64,000 bases of DNA from Paracoccus sp. (in: a-proteobacteria) (GTDB lineage: Bacteria > Pseudomonadota > Alphaproteobacteria > Rhodobacterales > Rhodobacteraceae), in NCBI RefSeq assembly GCF_030538495.1, contig NZ_JAUNTW010000004.1, forward strand, positions 62,001 through 126,000. Direction: 5' to 3'. Both the position numbers and the translations under genes were made by a program. The notes beneath the pieces are model-generated. The model ran no database searches and was not told where the DNA came from. It was given only the letters and a program-made list of their open reading frames with translations. Shown piece by piece: positions 705-8,181 of this stretch (the stretch's first letter is position 1; every line of letters starts with the position of its first letter).

Positions 705-1133
705 ATGTCGAACGCAAATGTTGAACAGGCAAAACGTGACGCTCAGGCTGCTGCCAAAGAAGCGGAAAAAGACATCAAATCCGGCGCAAAAGAGCTGGCC
801 AACAAAGCCAAAGACGTGGCCCGTGACGTTGCCGACAACAGCGGCGTGGAGCGCCTGAAAGAACGCGGCGCGGAACTGGTGGATGACGCCAAAGCCGCTG
901 GTCGCGAATACGCCGAACTGGCCCGCGAAAAGGGCGAAGAATATGCCGACCGCGCCCGTTACGAAGCCGAGCGTCTGTATGAAGCTGGCCACGAAAAAGC
1001 CCGCGAAGTCGCCAACTATGCCGAAGAGCAATATGACGAAGTGTCGGCCATGGTTCGCCGCAATCCGGCTCAGGCCCTGGGTATTGCTGCTGGCGTCGGC
1101 TTCCTGGTCGGTCTGCTGCTGGCCCGTCGCTAA
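705..1133 (+). CDS. DUF883/ElaB-YqjD family membrane-anchored protein
   Basis: A 142-residue protein. Residues 1-105 are very rich in Ala, Lys, Glu and Asp and predicted to form a long charged helix or coiled coil. The C-terminus (about 112-142) has the signature R-R-N-P-A-Q-A-L-G-I-A followed by a hydrophobic glycine-zipper helix ending in LLLARR. This layout is that of the ElaB/YgaM/YqjD (DUF883) family, C-tail-anchored inner-membrane proteins of which YqjD binds ribosomes in E. coli. The next gene starts 12 bases on and encodes another small membrane protein, so the two are likely co-transcribed. A stress or stationary-phase role is inferred from the family only. Confidence 0.75.
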   Translation: MSNANVEQAKRDAQAAAKEAEKDIKSGAKELANKAKDVARDVADNSGVERLKERGAELVDDAKAAGREYAELAREKGEEYADRARYEAERLYEAGHEKAREVANYAEEQYDEVSAMVRRNPAQALGIAAGVGFLVGLLLARR

Positions 1134-1145
1134 GGAGGGGCCGTA

Positions 1146-1796
1146 ATGTTCGATTATGCGCATCGTCTGAAACTTGCGCTGTCGGACACGGCGCGTCGTT
1201 CGGCCCTGAAAATCGGGGCCGGCGTCGTCGGCCTGATCGCGGTGTGTTACCTGATGTCGGCGCTGTGGTGGTTCCTGAACCTGACCATGGAATTGGGACC
1301 GACGCTGGCATCGCTGATTATCGGCGTGGTTCTGGCCGCAATTGCCGGGGTGGTGTTCGTGCTGGGCAACAAAACCCAGCATCAGATGCCCACCACGGAC
1401 GAGCTGAAACGCGAAGTCGAAGCCCGCGTGACGCTGGCCGCTGATGCTGCCACCGACCGCGCCCGGGTTGAAATGGCCCGCGCCGTCGATATGGCCGAAC
1501 GCAAGGTTCACAGCCTGATGGATGAGGCCGGGGAACGTGCGAACGCATTTGCCTATAACGCGGAACGCCGCGTCATGGGGACGGTGCGCGATACGGCGGC
1601 CTCGGTCGGGTTGACGACGCAGAACCTGCAAACCGCGCGACGCAAGGCCGAACACGGCGTTGCGACCGCCAAGCGCGCGGCCAACACCAATGCGGGCAGC
1701 ATGGCCAAGGTGCTGGGTGCCTTTGCGGTGGGTGTGACGCTGGCCGCCAAGGTTGCGGAATCGCGCCGCCGTGATGACGACGATTATTACGTCTGA
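1146..1796 (+). CDS. Phage-holin-superfamily-like small membrane protein
   Basis: A 216-residue protein with two adjacent hydrophobic helices (about 21-43 and 52-74), a charged amphipathic middle (about 80-180) and a weak third hydrophobic stretch near 186-201, ending in an acidic DDDDYYV tail. This resembles proteins annotated as phage holin family or Act-like membrane proteins that accompany DUF883 genes in Rhodobacteraceae. Despite the name there is no phage context. The ATG follows a strong AAGGAGGGG ribosome binding site (1132-1140) that overlaps the end of the preceding gene, which argues for one operon. The molecular function is unknown. Confidence 0.6.
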   Translation: MFDYAHRLKLALSDTARRSALKIGAGVVGLIAVCYLMSALWWFLNLTMELGPTLASLIIGVVLAAIAGVVFVLGNKTQHQMPTTDELKREVEARVTLAADAATDRARVEMARAVDMAERKVHSLMDEAGERANAFAYNAERRVMGTVRDTAASVGLTTQNLQTARRKAEHGVATAKRAANTNAGSMAKVLGAFAVGVTLAAKVAESRRRDDDDYYV

Positions 1797-1816
1797 TCCG
1801 ATGGCTTGAAGAAAGG

Positions 1817-1844
1817 GGGCGGCGCGCAGGTGCCGCCCTTTTTT
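1817..1844 (+). terminator. Intrinsic terminator after the DUF883/holin-like pair
   Basis: Stem GGGCGGC (1817-1823) with GCCGCCC (1832-1838), an 8-base loop and six T residues (1839-1844). Confidence 0.85.
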
Positions 1845-1908
1845 GATGCGGTCTTGCAGGCGGCCTGTGCATCCCCTAAATCTGATGGCAACAGAAAAGG
1901 ACATCACC

Positions 1909-2151
1909 ATGGCGATGGAAGCCCACGACATCGAGGCGCTGATCCGGGCATCGTTCCCCGACGCGCAGATCACCATTACCGATCTGGCTGGCGACGGAAA
2001 CCACTACGCCGCCGAGGTGATCGACGAAAGTTTCCGCGGCAAAAACCGGGTGCAGCAACAGCGCGCCGTCTATGCCGCGCTGCAAGGGAAAATGGACGGC
2101 CCGGCGGGCGAATTGCACGCTTTGGCGCTGACGACCAAGGCGCCGGAATAA
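1909..2151 (+). CDS. BolA/IbaG family protein
   Basis: An 80-residue BolA-fold protein with the family hallmarks: a GDGNHY stretch (28-33), a positively charged [11 protein letters not shown] helix start, and the C-terminal E-L-H-A-L segment whose His (residue 70) is the usual Fe-S ligand in BolA-glutaredoxin complexes. I start at the ATG preceded by AGAAAAGG rather than at an upstream in-frame codon that lacks a binding site and family homology. The next gene is a CGFS glutaredoxin, the known partner: BolA and monothiol Grx share a [2Fe-2S] cluster and act in iron-sulfur trafficking or iron sensing. Confidence 0.9.
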
Positions 2152-2179
2152 CCCGGTCCGCCGCAAAAGGAATGAACGA

Positions 2180-2542
2180 ATGACCGATACCACTGCCCGC
2201 ATCCGCGACATGATCGACAACCGCGATGTTGTCCTGTTCATGAAAGGCACCAAAGACATGCCGCAATGCGGGTTTTCCAGCCGGGTTGCGGGCGTCCTGA
2301 ATTATATGGGCGTCGATTATCAGGATGTGAATGTGCTGGCGGACGCCGATATTCGTCAGGGTATCAAAGATTTTTCCGACTGGCCGACCATTCCGCAACT
2401 CTATGTCAAAGGCGAATTTGTCGGCGGCTGCGATATCGTCACCGAAATGGTGCTGTCGGGCGAACTGGATCAGCTGTTCGCGCAAAAAGGCGTGACCTAT
2501 GACACCGAGGCTGCCGACCGGATCCGCGAAGCAAACGCCTGA
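2180..2542 (+). CDS. grxD: Grx4-type monothiol glutaredoxin
   Basis: A 120-residue single-domain glutaredoxin with the monothiol active site CGFS (30-33) preceded by MKGTKDMPQ. It also has the W-P-T-I-P-Q-L-Y cis-proline segment and the GG-C-D glutathione-binding region. These features define the Grx4/GrxD class, which carries a bridging [2Fe-2S] cluster and delivers it to targets or partners with BolA. It sits 28 bases after the bolA-type gene, so the two form an operon. Confidence 0.93.
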
Positions 2543-2606
2543 TCCGCGTCCTGTTAATTGATCTTTATTGCCTTGCGGGACACGACGTTTGGTGCAAGCT
2601 GATGCT

Positions 2607-2984
2607 ATGCAACATGTCGTGTTCCGCTTTTTCGTGATCGATCGTGATCCCTTTGTCGCGCAGGATATGTGCGACGGGCTGCGGGCGGCCTGTGTGGGCG
2701 CGGATGTGTGCCATGTCAGCAGCGTGGACGAATTAACGGCGCTGCCGGATTTGGCGCGCGATGCGGGCCTTGGCTTGCCTGTTGTGATCACAAAGAAATC
2801 CATTGCAGAAATCATGGCCAGCGGGCTGGATCTTCTGGTGCAGCAAATCAATTCGCAACTGGTCGTGCGTCTGGGCGATGACCCGGTGGCCGATATTCTG
2901 GGCCGCGGATGGCTGCCCTTGGCCGCGCCATTCAGCTGGGACGATCTGGCCGATCTGGTCCAGCAACTGCAAGGGCGTGGATAA
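2607..2984 (+). CDS. Small conserved protein resembling a response-regulator receiver
   Basis: A protein of about 125 residues if it starts at ATG 2607 (an in-frame start 39 bases upstream is possible). The alternating hydrophobic strand and helix pattern, the early acidic D12/D14 and the C-terminal LVQQL helix suggest a receiver-like fold. I see no convincing phosphoacceptor Asp at the end of strand 3 and the Lys environment (VVITKKS) is not standard. It is best called a hypothetical protein with a possible pseudo-receiver fold. It has no partner kinase nearby. Confidence 0.5.
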   Translation: MQHVVFRFFVIDRDPFVAQDMCDGLRAACVGADVCHVSSVDELTALPDLARDAGLGLPVVITKKSIAEIMASGLDLLVQQINSQLVVRLGDDPVADILGRGWLPLAAPFSWDDLADLVQQLQGRG

Positions 2985-3003
2985 GAGGTCGCGCGGCGAG
3001 GGG

Positions 3004-3414
3004 GTTGTTCCCGCGAAGGTGGGGATGAACCGACCAGCCGTTTTGTCGCGGGCGTGTCGGCGTCCTGTTCCCTGTAAGCGCGGGATGAACCGCAGACTGA
3101 ATCCCATTCTTACATTGCCGCGCCCTATTCCCCGCGAAAGCGGGGATGGACCGACTCCATATCGATTCCGTTAATCGGTAGAGTGTTGTTCCCCGCGAAC
3201 GCGGGGATGAACCGGGCGAAGCATGGCCAACCCGCGTTATCTATCATTGTTTCCCACGCAAGCGGGAGCAACCGTCGCGATGGCCCTGAACGGGCAGGAC
3301 GCGGCGCTGTTCCGCGGGAACCACCATCCTGACCAGCAGACCTTGGCTGCTCCTTGCGGACGCGGGATGGGCCGCGCGGCCGAACCGTTTCTCGTAAACG
3401 CGGGGATGCCCCCG
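3004..3414. CRISPR. Degenerate orphan CRISPR-like array, type I-E-like repeats
   Basis: Five 29-base repeat units (3004-3032, 3064-3092, 3125-3153, 3186-3214, 3246-3274) are separated by unique spacers of 31, 32, 32 and 31 bases. The best unit (3186-3214) has TTCCCCGCG, a short loop, then CGCGGGGATGAACCG, closely matching the type I-E consensus. The other units have one to eight changes. A very poor unit follows at 3307-3335, then two repeat-like segments (3346-3374 and 3386-3414) with irregular spacing. No cas gene lies in the window. The spacing is diagnostic; the repeat divergence suggests decay. Confidence 0.72.
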
Positions 3415-3460
3415 ATGCTCTGCCCCCGCAACTGCCCGCCCTTTGGCGCGGTCACGCCGT

Positions 3461-3564
3461 GAGTATTTTTGCACAGAAGAAACGGCAAGGGCGGCACCCA
3501 ACCTAAGGCGCCGCCCCTATCTTCTGTGTCTAAATATCCCGGGGGTCCGGGGGCTGGCCCCCGG
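3461..3564. repeat. Inverted repeat with CAGAAGA core plus GC hairpin
   Basis: The left arm GAGTATTTTTGCACAGAAGA (3461-3480) pairs imperfectly with TCTTCTGTGTCTAAATATC (3520-3538). A CCGGGGG/CCCCCGG hairpin (3547-3564) follows. The same arms occur at 35915-35972, 40744-40796 and 63875. The element lies between convergent genes, as its relatives at 35.9 and 40.7 kb do. Confidence 0.65.
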
Positions 3565-3590
3565 CCTCTCCCCCGGTCCGCCCTCGCTAA

Positions 3591-4628
3591 TCAGAACCCG
3601 GCTTTGATCCGTTCGAACTCGGCCAACTGGCGCAGGCGTTGTTGCGGGTCGTTCGGGGTCTGGTCCAGAATCGGGGCATCCACCGGGCCGAGACCTTCGG
3701 CAACCGCCGGATCATCGGCGATCGTGGCCATGGCCGCGGCCGAGGTGTGGCCGTAACCGATCGCATCCAACAGCGCGCGACCCGCCGACGGTTCCAGCCA
3801 CGCGTTGACGAAATCATAGGCTTTGTCTTCGCTGCCCGGCCCGTTTTTCAGATTGATCAGACCGCAGAAAAACGTCGATGACCCTTCTTTCGGCGCACGC
3901 TGGAAGCCGACGGGATAGCCGTCCTCTTTCAAATACACCACGCCGTCATTCCACGACCACGCAACATCGACCGCGCCTGATGCCATCAGCTGCGCCTGTT
4001 CGGACGGGTCCGACCAATAGGCGGCGACGTTCTGATGCGCCTCGCGGAGCCATGCTGCGGCGGCTTGGAATTGTTCTTCGGTCACGTCGTCCCAATCGGT
4101 CGTGCCGGTCGCCAGATAGCCCAATGCCCAGACATCATCGGCGCTGTCGGGCAGGGATGTGCGGCCCTGATATTTGGGGCTGACAAAGACTTGCAGCGTT
4201 TCCACATCTTCGGCCGGGACGTTTTCGGTGTTATAGGCAATCGCCGTCGCGCCCCAATCGGTCGGGATATACCAGACGCCCTGATCATCCTTGAACACGT
4301 CGGAATCCAGGAAACGCGCTTCGATCTGGTCGAAATTCGGGATGCGCGACGTGTCCCAGGGTTCGATCAGGTCGGCATCGCGGTATTTGCTGACCATCTG
4401 GCTGCACGGATGGGCGATGTCGGCGCGGAAACCGGATGCGACTTTTTGGAACGCTTCGTCATCGTCGCCGTAAAAGGCAAAGGTGGGGCTTTGCCCGTGT
4501 TTGTCGATATAGGCCTGAAAGATTTCAGGAACCTCGAACCCGGCCCAGTCGAAAATCGTCAGTTCCGGGTCGGCGGCAAAGGCGGGCAGCGCCGCCGCGG
4601 TCAGAATGGTGGTGGTCAGCAAACGCAT
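3591..4628 (-). CDS. Periplasmic substrate-binding protein, spermidine/putrescine (PotD/PotF) type
   Basis: A 345-residue extracellular solute-binding protein. Residues 1-18 form a signal peptide cleaved after ALPAFA. The mature protein has the polyamine-binding layout: an early I-F-D-W-A-G-F motif, an H-P-C-S segment, W-Y-I-P-T-D-W-G-A-T near the middle, and A-W-S-W-N-D later. Homologues deliver polyamines to PotABC-type importers. No permease or ATPase gene is adjacent, so it is an orphan component here and its ligand is uncertain. An AGGAAGG lies about 11 bases before the ATG. Confidence 0.8.
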   Translation of the reverse strand: MRLLTTTILTAAALPAFAADPELTIFDWAGFEVPEIFQAYIDKHGQSPTFAFYGDDDEAFQKVASGFRADIAHPCSQMVSKYRDADLIEPWDTSRIPNFDQIEARFLDSDVFKDDQGVWYIPTDWGATAIAYNTENVPAEDVETLQVFVSPKYQGRTSLPDSADDVWALGYLATGTTDWDDVTEEQFQAAAAWLREAHQNVAAYWSDPSEQAQLMASGAVDVAWSWNDGVVYLKEDGYPVGFQRAPKEGSSTFFCGLINLKNGPGSEDKAYDFVNAWLEPSAGRALLDAIGYGHTSAAAMATIADDPAVAEGLGPVDAPILDQTPNDPQQRLRQLAEFERIKAGF

Positions 4629-4733
4629 GGGACACGGGGCCTTCCTGTTGGTGTCATTCCCGACAGGCTAGCCCCGCATCTGTGGCCGCGCAAGGCGTTC
4701 GCGCGACCGTGAACGCCCGACGTAACGCGCGCG

Positions 4734-5477
4734 TCACCGCATCCGCAGCCCGCCATCCAAACGGATCGTTTCGCCGTTCATATAGTCGTTTTCGACAATG
4801 AACTGCGCCAGATGGGCAAATTCCGCCGGGTCGCCCAGACGTTTGGGAAAGTTAACCTCGGCGGCCAGACTGTCCTGAACCTCTTGCGGCAGGCTGCGCA
4901 GCATGGGCGTGCCGAATGTGCCGGGCGCGATCGAACAGATGCGGATCGCGGGGCGCACCAGATCGCGCGCAATCGGCAGGGTCATGCCCGCAATCGCCGC
5001 CTTGGACGCGGCATAGGCAGCCTGTCCCGCCTGACCGTCAAAGGCCGCAATCGACGCGGTGTTGATGATGACGCCGTTCTGATCGCGACCGTTCTTGGCC
5101 ATCTGTTCGGCGGCCAGACGCAGCACGTTAAAGGTGCCGATCAGGTTCACCTCGATCACTTTGCGAAAGCTGTCCAGTTTATGCGCGCCGTCGCGGCCAA
5201 CGGTTTTTTCGCCAATGACGATGCCCGCGCAGTTCACGCATACGTCGATGCCGCCCATTTCGGCCACGGCGGCGTCAATCGCGGCCTGCACGCTGGCGGG
5301 GTCGGTCACGTCGGTTTCGGCAAAGCCCGCGCCGATGCTGGCGGCGTATTCCGCGCCTTTGGGGTCACGGTCCAGAATGAAGACCCGAGCGCCCGCCTTG
5401 CGGAAATGGTCCGCCGTGGCCTGACCCAAACCGGATGCGCCCCCGGTGATGATGGCGCGGCTGTCTGCGATTTTCAT
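4734..5477 (-). CDS. Short-chain dehydrogenase, 3-hydroxyacyl-CoA dehydrogenase type 2-like
   Basis: A 247-residue classical SDR. The cofactor motif is TGGASGLG (11-18), Asp36 follows strand 2 (NAD preference), and the catalytic set is N111, S142, Y155, K159. The C-terminal P-K-R-L-G-D-P-x-E-(F/Y)-A and M-N-G-E-T-I-R-L-D-G motifs resemble type II 3-hydroxyacyl-CoA dehydrogenases (HSD17B10 group). I use the ATG at 5477, preceded by GGGAGGGG, instead of a longer upstream frame. The likely reaction is NAD-dependent oxidation of a 3-hydroxyacyl-CoA in short or branched acyl-chain degradation; the substrate is inferred from family resemblance. Confidence 0.8.
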   Translation of the reverse strand: MKIADSRAIITGGASGLGQATADHFRKAGARVFILDRDPKGAEYAASIGAGFAETDVTDPASVQAAIDAAVAEMGGIDVCVNCAGIVIGEKTVGRDGAHKLDSFRKVIEVNLIGTFNVLRLAAEQMAKNGRDQNGVIINTASIAAFDGQAGQAAYAASKAAIAGMTLPIARDLVRPAIRICSIAPGTFGTPMLRSLPQEVQDSLAAEVNFPKRLGDPAEFAHLAQFIVENDYMNGETIRLDGGLRMR

Positions 5478-5529
5478 GAAATCCCCTCCCTTGTCGGTCT
5501 GGTCCCTTTGTCGCATGACCGCGCGCCCG

Positions 5530-6372
5530 TTACCAGCGTCCCGAGGCCCCTCCGCCCGAGGATTGCCCCCCGCCGAACCCGCCCGAGCGTCCCCCGCCGG
5601 AACGGGGTCGCGTGTCGCGGTCGGTGCGGGGGCTGGTCCAGCCGCAGGTCGGGCAACGGCGCCACACGCTTTCGCGCAGGGGGCGGCCTGCGGCGTCGGT
5701 GGCGTTTTCGATGGGGGCGGTTTCTTCGGTCAGGCCGCGGCCTTGGCAGTTGGGGCAGGGCTGGCGGCGGCGTTGAACATCGCGCCAGATGCCGCGCGCA
5801 ATGGTCGATGCGATGAACGCGAACACGCCCCAGAACAGCACCATCGGCCCCCAGTCGCCAATCCCGCGCCGAGGCGGTTCGACGCCATGCCCCGCCGCCA
5901 CCGGGCGCGCGATCAGGTCGATCACCTGCAACGCGCCGTCGCGGGTGCCGCCCGACATATTCCCGTCGCGAAAGGCGGGCAGCATGGTGCGATTCATAAT
6001 CCGTTCCGCCACCAGATCGGCGTTGCGCGAATATCCGGCGCCAAGTTCGATGCGCGCTTCGCGGTCATCCGGCAGGACCAGCACCATGAACCCGTCATTG
6101 CGGGTCGCATCGCCCACGCCCCAATGATTGAACAGCCGCGTCGCGAACTGTTCCAGCGTGCCGCCCCATTCCGCGCGGCTGGGCAGGGTGACGACCGTTC
6201 CCTGAACCCCGGTGTCGCGATAGAGCGCGATCAGCGCCTGATCCAGAACCCGCGTGTCGTCATTGGTCAGCACGGCGGCAAAGTCGTTGATGCTGGTATG
6301 CACCCAATCGGGCAAATCCTGCGCCGCCACGGGCAGCGCCAGCATCAGCCAGATCACCGCCGCGCGGATCAT
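5530..6372 (-). CDS. TPM-domain protein with a zinc ribbon and Gly-rich tail
   Basis: A 280-residue envelope protein. It has a signal peptide 1-17 (LPVAA), a TPM (Psb32/MOLO-1-like) domain about 20-140 with D-G-F-M-V-L-V-L and R-I-E-L-G-A-G-Y-S, one membrane helix about 174-194, then a four-cysteine ribbon (C206, C209, C240, C243) and a Gly/Ser/Arg tail ending in GRW. TPM proteins are membrane-anchored and of uncertain activity; some are phosphatases. Its ATG overlaps the ppk2 stop (ATGA), so the two are translationally coupled. The zinc ribbon on the cytoplasmic side is the notable feature. Confidence 0.75.
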
Positions 6373-7253
6373 GCCCGCAACAGGTCCGGCCCGCCCGCGA
6401 TTTTGGGGTCAATCGCGCCGATGACATCCACATCTTTGCCCGCGTAATCCACGGCGTGAAGGATGGTCTGGATCGCCGCAATCCGCGCGCGGCGTTTGTC
6501 ATCGGACCGGATCACCGTCCAGGGCGCAATCGGGGAATGGGACAGGTTCAACGTGTCGCGGATGGCGACCGAATAGTCGTCCCATTTCGCCAGCCCGTTC
6601 ACGTCGATGGGCGACAGTTTCCATTGCTTCAGCGGGTCGTTTTCCCGATCCAGAAACCGGCGCAACTGTTCGGCGCGTCCCACATCCATCCACAATTTGA
6701 CCAGCACCACCCCGTCATCGACCAGCGTTTGTTCAAAGCTGGGCAATTGCCGGAAAAAGGCGTTCCGCTGGGCATCGGTGCTGAACCCAAACACGCGCTC
6801 CACCACGCCACGGTTATACCAACTGCGGTCGAACAGCGCGATTTCACCGGCGGCGGGCAGCCAGTCGATGTAACGCTGAAAATACCACTGGCCTGCTTCG
6901 CGTTCGGTTGGTTTGGGCAGCGCCACGATATAGGCCGAACGCGGATTCAGATTGGCGCGCACCCGGTCGATGGTGCCGCCCTTGCCGGCGGCGTCGCGGC
7001 CTTCGAACAGCACAACCACGCGCTTGCCCGCCGCGATCACGCCATACAGCATCCGCACCAGCTGCGTTTGCAGCCGGTCCAGATGCGCGTTGTAATCGTC
7101 GCGGTCCATATCCCGGTCATAGGGGAACGCATCATCCAGAATGTCACGCTTGCTGCCGTTCTGAATCGCCTGACGGATGTCCTTGGGCGCGCCCTTTTCC
7201 AGATATTCGGTGATTTTGCCCACCAGAGGCAGGTCGGGGTTATGGTCAGGCAT
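6369..7253 (-). CDS. ppk2: Polyphosphate kinase 2 family protein
   Basis: A 294-residue PPK2-family kinase. Visible motifs are the Walker [10 protein letters not shown] (85-93), the lid region D-R-S-W-Y-N-R (142-148), and E-R-V-F-G-F plus the P-L-K-Q-W-K-L-S-P segment. PPK2 enzymes move phosphate between polyphosphate and nucleoside di- or monophosphates. The length and motifs fit class I (NDP-phosphorylating), but assigning direction and substrate needs assays. It overlaps metA upstream by 8 bases and the TPM gene downstream by 4, placing it inside a metA operon. Confidence 0.9.
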
Positions 7254-8181
7254 CGTCGCGGTTCCCAATGCGGGACATATCGAAATATGTCGTCTGATAG
7301 ATCTCGTTGATCCAGTTACCGTAGAGCAAATGCGCATGGCTGCGCCAGCGATTTGCGGGCGCGCGCGTGGGGTCGTCATCGGGGTAATAATTCGCAGGCA
7401 CCCGCGCGGGTTTGCCTGCCGCCGTGTCGCGGTCGTATTCGTCCTTTAACGTGGTGCTGTCATATTCAAAATGGTTGAACACATAGAGCGCGCGATGATC
7501 CGGGTCGGCCAGCAGGCATGGCCCGGTTTCGGGGCTGGACAGCAGTGTTTGCAGCGCCGGGCGGGCGTCCACATCGGCCTGACGGTTTTCGGTCCAGCGG
7601 CTGACCGGCACCAGCACATCATCCGAAAACCCCCGAAGATAGGGCGACGCAGGCGCGCAATTCTGGTGCCGGTAACATCCGAACGCCTTGTGATCCAACA
7701 GATATTTCGGCAGGCCGTGGAAATACCACGCCATAGCCATGCCGCCCCAGCACACGCCAAAGGTCGAATGAACATGCGTCTGCGTCCAGTCAAAGACGCG
7801 CGCCAGTTCGTCCCAATAGGTGACATCGGCGAAATCCAGATGTTCAACCGGCGCGCCGGTAATCACCAGCCCGTCGAACTTTTCCCCCGACGCCTGCACA
7901 TCGCGGAACGGCCGGTAAAAGCTGGCCATATGGTCGGCGGCGGTGTTGCGGCTTTCGTGATCGGACATGCGGATCAGTTGGAAATCAATTTGCAGCGGCG
8001 TGGCTCCGATCAGGCGGGCAAATTGGTTTTCGGTCTGAATCTTTTTCGGCATCAGGTTCAGCAACCCGATGCGCAGCGGGCGAATATCCTGTTGCGCGGC
8101 ACGACCGGGGGACATGACCATCACGCCTTCGTCCGACAGGATGCGGTATGCGGGCAGGCTTTCGTTCAGGGTGATGGGCAT
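7246..8181 (-). CDS. metA: MetA: homoserine O-acyltransferase, probably acetyl-CoA specific
   Basis: A 311-residue MetA-family enzyme catalysing the first committed step of methionine synthesis. The catalytic triad is visible: C144 in F-G-V-C-W-G-G, and H237 with E239 in F-N-H-F-E-Y. The segment T-G-A-P-V-E places Glu113 where E. coli MetA has Gly111. In characterised enzymes Glu at this position directs use of acetyl-CoA, so O-acetylhomoserine is the likelier product despite the usual succinyltransferase label. The gene begins 2 bases after a P-loop ATPase gene. Homoserine dehydrogenase lies at 51.8 kb. Confidence 0.93.

Follow-up and report, generated by a model that had tools for sequence, protein, structure and literature searches.

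A Degenerate, Probably Remnant Type I-E CRISPR Array in a Paracoccus Genome with an Intact Array of the Same Repeat

Introduction

Orphan or isolated CRISPR arrays are described in PMC8616872 and PMC5294841, where they are read either as possible remnants of degenerated CRISPR-Cas systems or as arrays that work with cas genes located at a distance. Degenerating arrays without cas genes have already been described, and the array analyzed here is a well-documented member of that class. It lies in a stretch of DNA of 64,000 nucleotides, the window (contig C4:62001-126000 of the 2.67 Mb Paracoccus genome G000). Like the orphan arrays in those two papers, it is a repeat-spacer array with cas genes absent nearby; in contrast to them, its repeats are individually eroded, and the same genome holds the cognate cas set and a matching intact array. 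Among the papers listed for CRISPR, Paracoccus and type I-E, titles and abstract openings point to no treatment of such arrays.

Two closer comparisons are available. First, the intact array on contig C5 of G000 shares with the window array the 29-nt repeat, which is identical to the decayed consensus, the 32-nt spacers, the hairpin and the 3' end, but it differs in having identical repeats, a Paracoccus-type I-E leader and adjacent cas genes. Second, Paracoccus kondratievae (G087) holds GTTCCCC-type mini-arrays that, like the window array, are short and eroded, occur at several loci behind co-directional genes and accompany an intact I-E array. Unlike in G000, the repeat of that intact array differs from the relics (GGCTCCCCC...ATAGACCC), which therefore look like those of a replaced system; the insertions are not homologous.

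We regard it as highly probable that the window array is what remains, in decayed form, of an additional array that belonged to the type I-E system of this genome; it is orphan in its local setting. Since one genome contains the same repeat in eroded and in intact arrays, it supplies the reference against which array decay can be measured. The case shows how an extra array fades beside a complete CRISPR system, with the spacers holding register for a while, the repeats mutating in an apparently neutral manner and the trailer end going first.

Results and Discussion

Anatomy of the Window Array

The sequence-only reading of this locus had proposed a decayed, orphan type I-E array with the geometry of 29-base units and spacers of 31-32 bases. 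It was confirmed that an array of I-E type units is present in the window. Gapped fitting placed five units of 28, 28, 29, 29 and 28 nt in 3005-3306, and all five spacers between 3033 and 3306 were exactly 32 nt. Thus, the five proposed units stood, and the lengths were slightly off: the repeats measure 28-29 nt, some having lost one base, and every spacer 32 nt. Unique 32-nt spacers at a period of 61 nt, the geometry of type I-E, were found in the left part of the array. The elements of the array are listed below; differences are relative to the intact repeat.

3005-3032, + strand: decayed repeat unit 1, 28 nt; four substitutions and one deletion
3033-3064, + strand: spacer W1, 32 nt
3065-3092, + strand: decayed repeat unit 2, 28 nt; four substitutions and one deletion
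3093-3124, + strand: spacer W2, 32 nt
3125-3153, + strand: decayed repeat unit 3, 29 nt; three substitutions, stem intact, fold of -16.3 kcal/mol
3154-3185, + strand: spacer W3, 32 nt; 29/32 protospacer match in genome G034 with AAG on its 5' side
3186-3214, + strand: repeat unit 4; differs in the first base alone (1/29), fold of -14.3 kcal/mol
3215-3246, + strand: spacer W4, 32 nt
3247-3274, + strand: decayed repeat unit 5, 28 nt; nine substitutions and one deletion, score 12, exact register
3275-3306, + strand: spacer W5, 32 nt
3307-3336, + strand: possible unit 6; gapped score 7, alone no better than chance
3347-3374, + strand: decayed unit 7, out of register; gapped score 14
3385-3413, + strand: decayed unit 8, at the trailer end and out of register; gapped score 13

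Beyond 3306 the register is lost, and two or three worse units follow as far as 3413. About 20 bp are absent between 3307 and 3347, and likewise between 3347 and 3385. Three further segments out of register had been proposed here; units 7 and 8 were upheld by their scores, whereas unit 6 was at the level of chance.

Chance was gauged on 200 random 450-bp segments of the window fitted with unit lengths of 27-31, for which the 95th percentile was 9 and the maximum 12; a narrower null of 29-mers gave 8 and 11, respectively. Six of the eight units (1-4, 7 and 8) scored 13 to 27, i.e., above the null maximum of 12. Unit 5 tied with this maximum, and unit 6 remained below the 95th percentile of 9.

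Because the training of covariance model R1 had included the units of the window and of a second decayed array on contig C19, model R2 was built without any decayed units, from seven intact repeat-spacer-repeat stretches. In a scan of 103,891 bases, for which E-values are rough, R2 recovered the pair at 3125-3214 with 75.1 bits (E 2.6e-21) and the pair at 3005-3092 with 49.5 bits (E 2.5e-13). At gathering scores, Rfam yielded a single match for the window, a tRNA at 483-555, and nothing at the array, and Tandem Repeats Finder did not list the array. Tools that need near-identical repeats would probably miss such arrays, so that estimates of how often CRISPR occurs and of what the spacers target are affected.

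An Intact Array, Its cas Genes and a Second Relic in the Same Genome

A pattern search of G000 recovered the 27-nt core of unit 4 identically in a tidy array at C5:121987-122991, which is intact, with 16 spacers of 32 nt separating 17 repeats. Its repeats are identical, and the last one ends in CCA. Unit 4 had been singled out as the unit that best fits an I-E repeat, and it does equal the intact repeat save for its first base; its fold has the same energy. The C5 array adjoins the full I-E set cas3-cse1-cse2-cas7-cas5-cas6-cas1-cas2, in agreement with the suggestion that Cas proteins are encoded elsewhere. Cas1e, Cas2e, Cas6e, Cas5e, Cas7e, Cse2 and Cse1 scored above the NCBIfam cut-offs. Cas3 passed the core helicase and HD domain models, while its full-length model reached 372.9 bits, below the cut-off of 569.

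A second eroded array of six units was located at C19:126780-127111, 10 bp behind a 198-aa gene with similarity to Smr-type endonucleases (69.1 bits; cut-off 180). Thus, the term orphan applies to the window array locally, but not genome-wide. The R1 search of G000, with 150 of 2504 candidates scored, yielded no copies below E 0.02 beyond the three arrays. When the consensus was taken from the 13 decayed units alone (seven of the window and six of C19), it equaled the intact repeat letter for letter; unit 6 was left out because it did not rise above chance. The features of an I-E repeat, i.e., about 29 nt, a GC-rich stem and a ATGAACCG-type 3' end, are present in this consensus, the individual repeats being eroded. 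The identity of the consensus with the genome's own repeat and the R2 scores given above bear out the proposal of a decayed type I-E array.

Three observations concern the structure and the surroundings of these arrays. The C5 array (L009 13988-14992) contains a segmental duplication of three units, by which spacers 4, 5 and 6 equal spacers 9, 10 and 11. Beside its trailer end, at L009 6780-13814, lies a type I restriction-modification-like set of HsdM-, HsdS- and HsdR-like genes, each under its full-length NCBIfam cut-off, and this neighborhood suggests a defence cluster. The 16-nt stem-loop CCCCGCGAACGCGGGG (GAAC loop) was not found in any of the 33 array loci checked in other genomes.

Arrays at Corresponding Loci and in Other Paracoccus Genomes

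The window array lies between a 138-aa gene ending at 2984 (+) and a potD-like solute-binding-protein gene at 3591-4628 (-). For comparison, 79 potD-type loci from GTDB genomes were extracted; their flanks extended at most 4 kb and in some cases stopped earlier at a contig end. By tblastn (E 1e-5), the SDR neighbor was found in 20 of the 79 loci, and grxD and the 138-aa gene in none. The junction of 138-aa gene, array and potD (2984-3591) likewise occurs in none of them. A single convincing array was found among the 79, in P. kondratievae (L076; 33.1 bits), in the opposite orientation relative to potD; the next best score (L023, 15.1 bits) proved on reading to lie inside or beside a gene. With R1, no array was detected at the 138-aa gene loci of 23/23 other genomes, nor at the loci of the Smr-like neighbor of the C19 array in 29 of 123 other genomes. 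The best score at these two kinds of loci, 16.9 bits at L130, was rejected as a chance hairpin on reading.

In the genus as a whole, R1 matched at E 1e-5 or better in at least 29 of 125 Paracoccus genomes, G000 included; this survey used stricter filters with about 34 candidates scored per genome, so that weak arrays may be missed. Decayed arrays were examined closely in two genomes, G000 and P. kondratievae. The intact array of the latter has another repeat, GGCTCCCCCGCACCTGCGGGGATAGACCC, and is accompanied by Cas1e and Cas5e above the cut-off and by a Cas6e-like gene (38.8 bits; cut-off 45.2). Its four eroded GTTCCCC-type mini-arrays lie at the following genome positions.

C1:1908511-1908708: eroded mini-array
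C1:282249-282456: eroded mini-array
C2:592257-592341: eroded mini-array
C2:486041-486129: eroded mini-array

In the extracted loci, the same four mini-arrays are found at the positions below.

L076 5083-5167: eroded mini-array between potD and a tmRNA gene (5360-5689)
L225 3250-3457: eroded mini-array
L226 3952-4167: eroded mini-array
L227 3042-3130: eroded mini-array behind a LysR-type gene

The genes on the 5' side of these relics are a TIGR01620-family gene, an RNA pyrophosphohydrolase gene, the potD-like gene and a gene for the LysR-type regulator. An intact I-E array together with eroded mini-arrays is thus present in P. kondratievae as well, and the phenomenon recurs.

In another genome (G089), the model matched 42 times at C37:10144-13536, both strands counted and E reaching 0.01, with irregular spacings of 60, 61, 121 and 294 and a CTCCCCC-like repeat. 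This is apparently a large array partway through erosion.

Flanks of the Array

As the sequence-only reading had stated, neither cas genes nor a leader were found beside the array. The ten neighboring proteins (705-8181) gave no Cas match in PADLOC-DB, the sole match near the array being a weak one to LmuB (705-1133, E 7e-4). No leader-like sequence was found on the 5' side: when the leader of the intact G000 array was compared with the 300 bp upstream of the window array, P was 0.57, and 0.98 in a second test. For the 300 bp upstream of the C19 array, the same comparison gave P 0.34. Six leaders from intact arrays of other Paracoccus genomes resembled the G000 leader (P 0.013 or less); thus, the test had power. 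Three nominal resemblances in the flanks were set aside on viewing: that of the inverted leader to the region downstream of the window array (P 0.002) rested on a 15-nt GC run, that of the forward leader to the same region (P 0.042) on 16 nt within the potD-like gene, and that of the intact trailer to the C19 downstream region (P 0.02) on a 10-nt run.

A recognizable leader was missing at five of the six decayed arrays examined in G000 and P. kondratievae. The sixth, L227, shows the letters of the genus leader by eye, although its alignment to the G000 leader was not significant (P 0.26). All six lie about 10 to 150 bp behind a stop codon on the same strand, an arrangement with a chance of 1 in 64 on which nothing is built here. 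Missing leaders and starts close behind genes would also be explained if the window array were not the remnant of a leader-bearing array but a new one, started by off-target integration by Cas1-Cas2 outside a leader. Such an event would be expected to duplicate local sequence, yet the units converge on the canonical repeat, and the leader letters at L227 likewise speak against it. We consider this origin very unlikely.

The array starts 20 bp past the co-directional stop at 2984. No sigma-70-like promoter was found in 2900-3620. Two overlapping terminator-like sites lie at 3444-3461 on the array strand, just past the array; on both strands together, three such sites were counted, vs. 0.9 (sd 1.0) in shuffled sequence. 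A strongly palindromic GC-rich run (CCCGGGGGTCCGGGGGCTGGCCCCCGG) was observed at 3536-3570, in the interval that separates the array from the solute-binding gene; we take it to resemble a Rhodobacterales intergenic repeat.

Mode of Decay

In the 13 decayed units of the window and C19, 64 substitutions were counted over 377 sites, i.e., at 17% of repeat sites. Transitions accounted for 48 of the 64, with C>T and G>A being the commonest changes, and five one-base deletions were present. Stem pairs were retained at 64/78, vs. 61.4 expected from random placement (P 0.27). Covariation was considered as a sign of preserved RNA structure and rejected, as the shuffle test on the decayed units was flat and stem retention was at the level of chance. 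Thus, no sign of selection on the hairpins was obtained, and the array appears to have drifted neutrally since acquisition stopped. The nearly perfect state of unit 4 among decayed neighbors is not particularly predicted by uniform drift. The 5' stem arm was altered at 22/78 sites and the 3' arm at 10/78 (gaps included), a difference for which we have no explanation.

The window array has the sequence, geometry and spacer-origin features of type I-E and lacks the leader and the adjacent cas genes of a functional locus. On its sequence, it may be classed as a degenerate, locally orphan array of the resident I-E system. Its history may have been as follows. Cas1-Cas2 would once have inserted spacers from invading DNA at the left (leader) end. 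The leader, plus any adjacent cas genes, would have been lost, and this loss was presumably the cause of the decay: with the leader gone, spacers would no longer enter and repeats would no longer be renewed. The units would then drift neutrally, the right (trailer) end being most worn. The cas set and the 17-repeat array on C5 presumably carry the active function. This order of events is the one that we infer.

Spacer Targets and Possible Residual Use

A search of spacers W1-W4 in 125 Paracoccus genomes returned a convincing target for one window spacer, W3. Besides its own locus, W3 had one match with up to three mismatches, 29/32 at G034 C285:977-1008, with AAG immediately on its 5' side. 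In E. coli, type I-E has AAG as a consensus PAM for interference (PMC6568314). Under a GC-adjusted random model, about 6e-7 matches of this kind are expected, the PAM not yet being counted. The flanks of the site in G034 contain no repeat; thus, it is a protospacer rather than part of an array. The target lies in a plasmid-like element of a related bacterium. Genes for DUF2442 and DUF4160 proteins were found on the same piece of contig, as was a Mob_Pre-like gene that scored 24.4 bits (cut-off 25.5). Judged by these sequence matches, W3 is very likely a genuine I-E spacer. A spacer search had been proposed together with the array, and the W3 protospacer is what it brought to light; the CRISPR origin, offered there for refutation, withstood the test through the AAG-flanked protospacer and the consensus identical to the genome's own repeat.

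The position of all six examined decayed arrays behind co-directional stops is a typical place for dispersed palindromic intergenic elements of the REP-like or terminator-like kind, which might resemble CRISPR repeats in appearance only. Such elements would not account for a 61-nt period with unique 32-nt spacers, for a consensus equal to the genome's I-E repeat, or for a W3 protospacer with AAG, and no genome copies below E 0.02 were seen outside the three arrays (150 of 2504 candidates scored). That the units are of this kind is extremely improbable.

It was also considered that the array is worn yet in use, with a read-through pre-crRNA from which Cas6e and Cascade of the C5 locus would employ W3, and perhaps W4, acting in trans to interfere with mobilisable elements or to prime against them. 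This reading is unlikely, in our view, but it draws on several observations. Units 3 and 4 keep full stems (-16.3 and -14.3 vs. -14.3 kcal/mol for the intact repeat), W3 differs from its protospacer at 3/32 bases only, beside AAG, and the array is placed 20 bp behind a co-directional stop with same-strand terminator-like sites just past it. Since units 3 and 4 fold like the intact repeat, a single crRNA carrying W3 is conceivable: given read-through from the gene ending at 2984, Cas6e could perhaps free it. On the other hand, the upstream region showed neither promoter-like nor leader-like sequence, unit 3 has a changed handle (ATGGACCG vs. ATGAACCG), and stem retention is consistent with neutral drift. 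Moreover, two of the three protospacer mismatches fall at spacer positions 1 and 2, which would presumably lie in the seed. Priming could make use of a target such as this one, with three mismatches and an adjacent AAG. Extended to the genus, the idea would be that eroded I-E mini-arrays behind co-directional genes recur in Paracoccus and are transcribed by read-through, and that their imperfect crRNAs act in trans, chiefly by priming the resident I-E system when plasmids return; we hold this to be slightly less probable still. A remnant of an additional array in neutral decay remains the preferred explanation.

Searches with the other spacers and in other collections gave no further convincing target of a window spacer. 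Spacers W1, W2 and W4 went unmatched in the remaining 124 of the 125 Paracoccus genomes, with up to three mismatches allowed for W1. Queries of the plasmid collection with W1-W5 one at a time produced, among at most ten matches listed per spacer, none better than E 0.2, and the surroundings of the G034 protospacer were unmatched in that collection. When the entire array stretch was compared with the phage collection, no listed match was better than E 1, and viral_contigs contained none of the exact 21-23-mers taken from W1-W5, from C19 spacer 3 or from the G034 protospacer. For the whole array stretch, plasmid records with low E-values (best 20 of 86) aligned over repeat-spacer stretches, and one such record is an I-E locus of P. 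aestuarii.

Two observations were made on phage records. Three short, unannotated records (OR851156.1, OR845838.1 and OR851017.1) showed matches across several repeat-spacer units; thus, bacterial I-E array sequence is probably contained within them. Spacer 3 of the C19 array (L010 4932-4963) matched part of a Paracoccus phage Shpa (KR072689.1) tail gene at 21/22 over its first 22 bases but at 24/32 overall, without AAG and with E 1.
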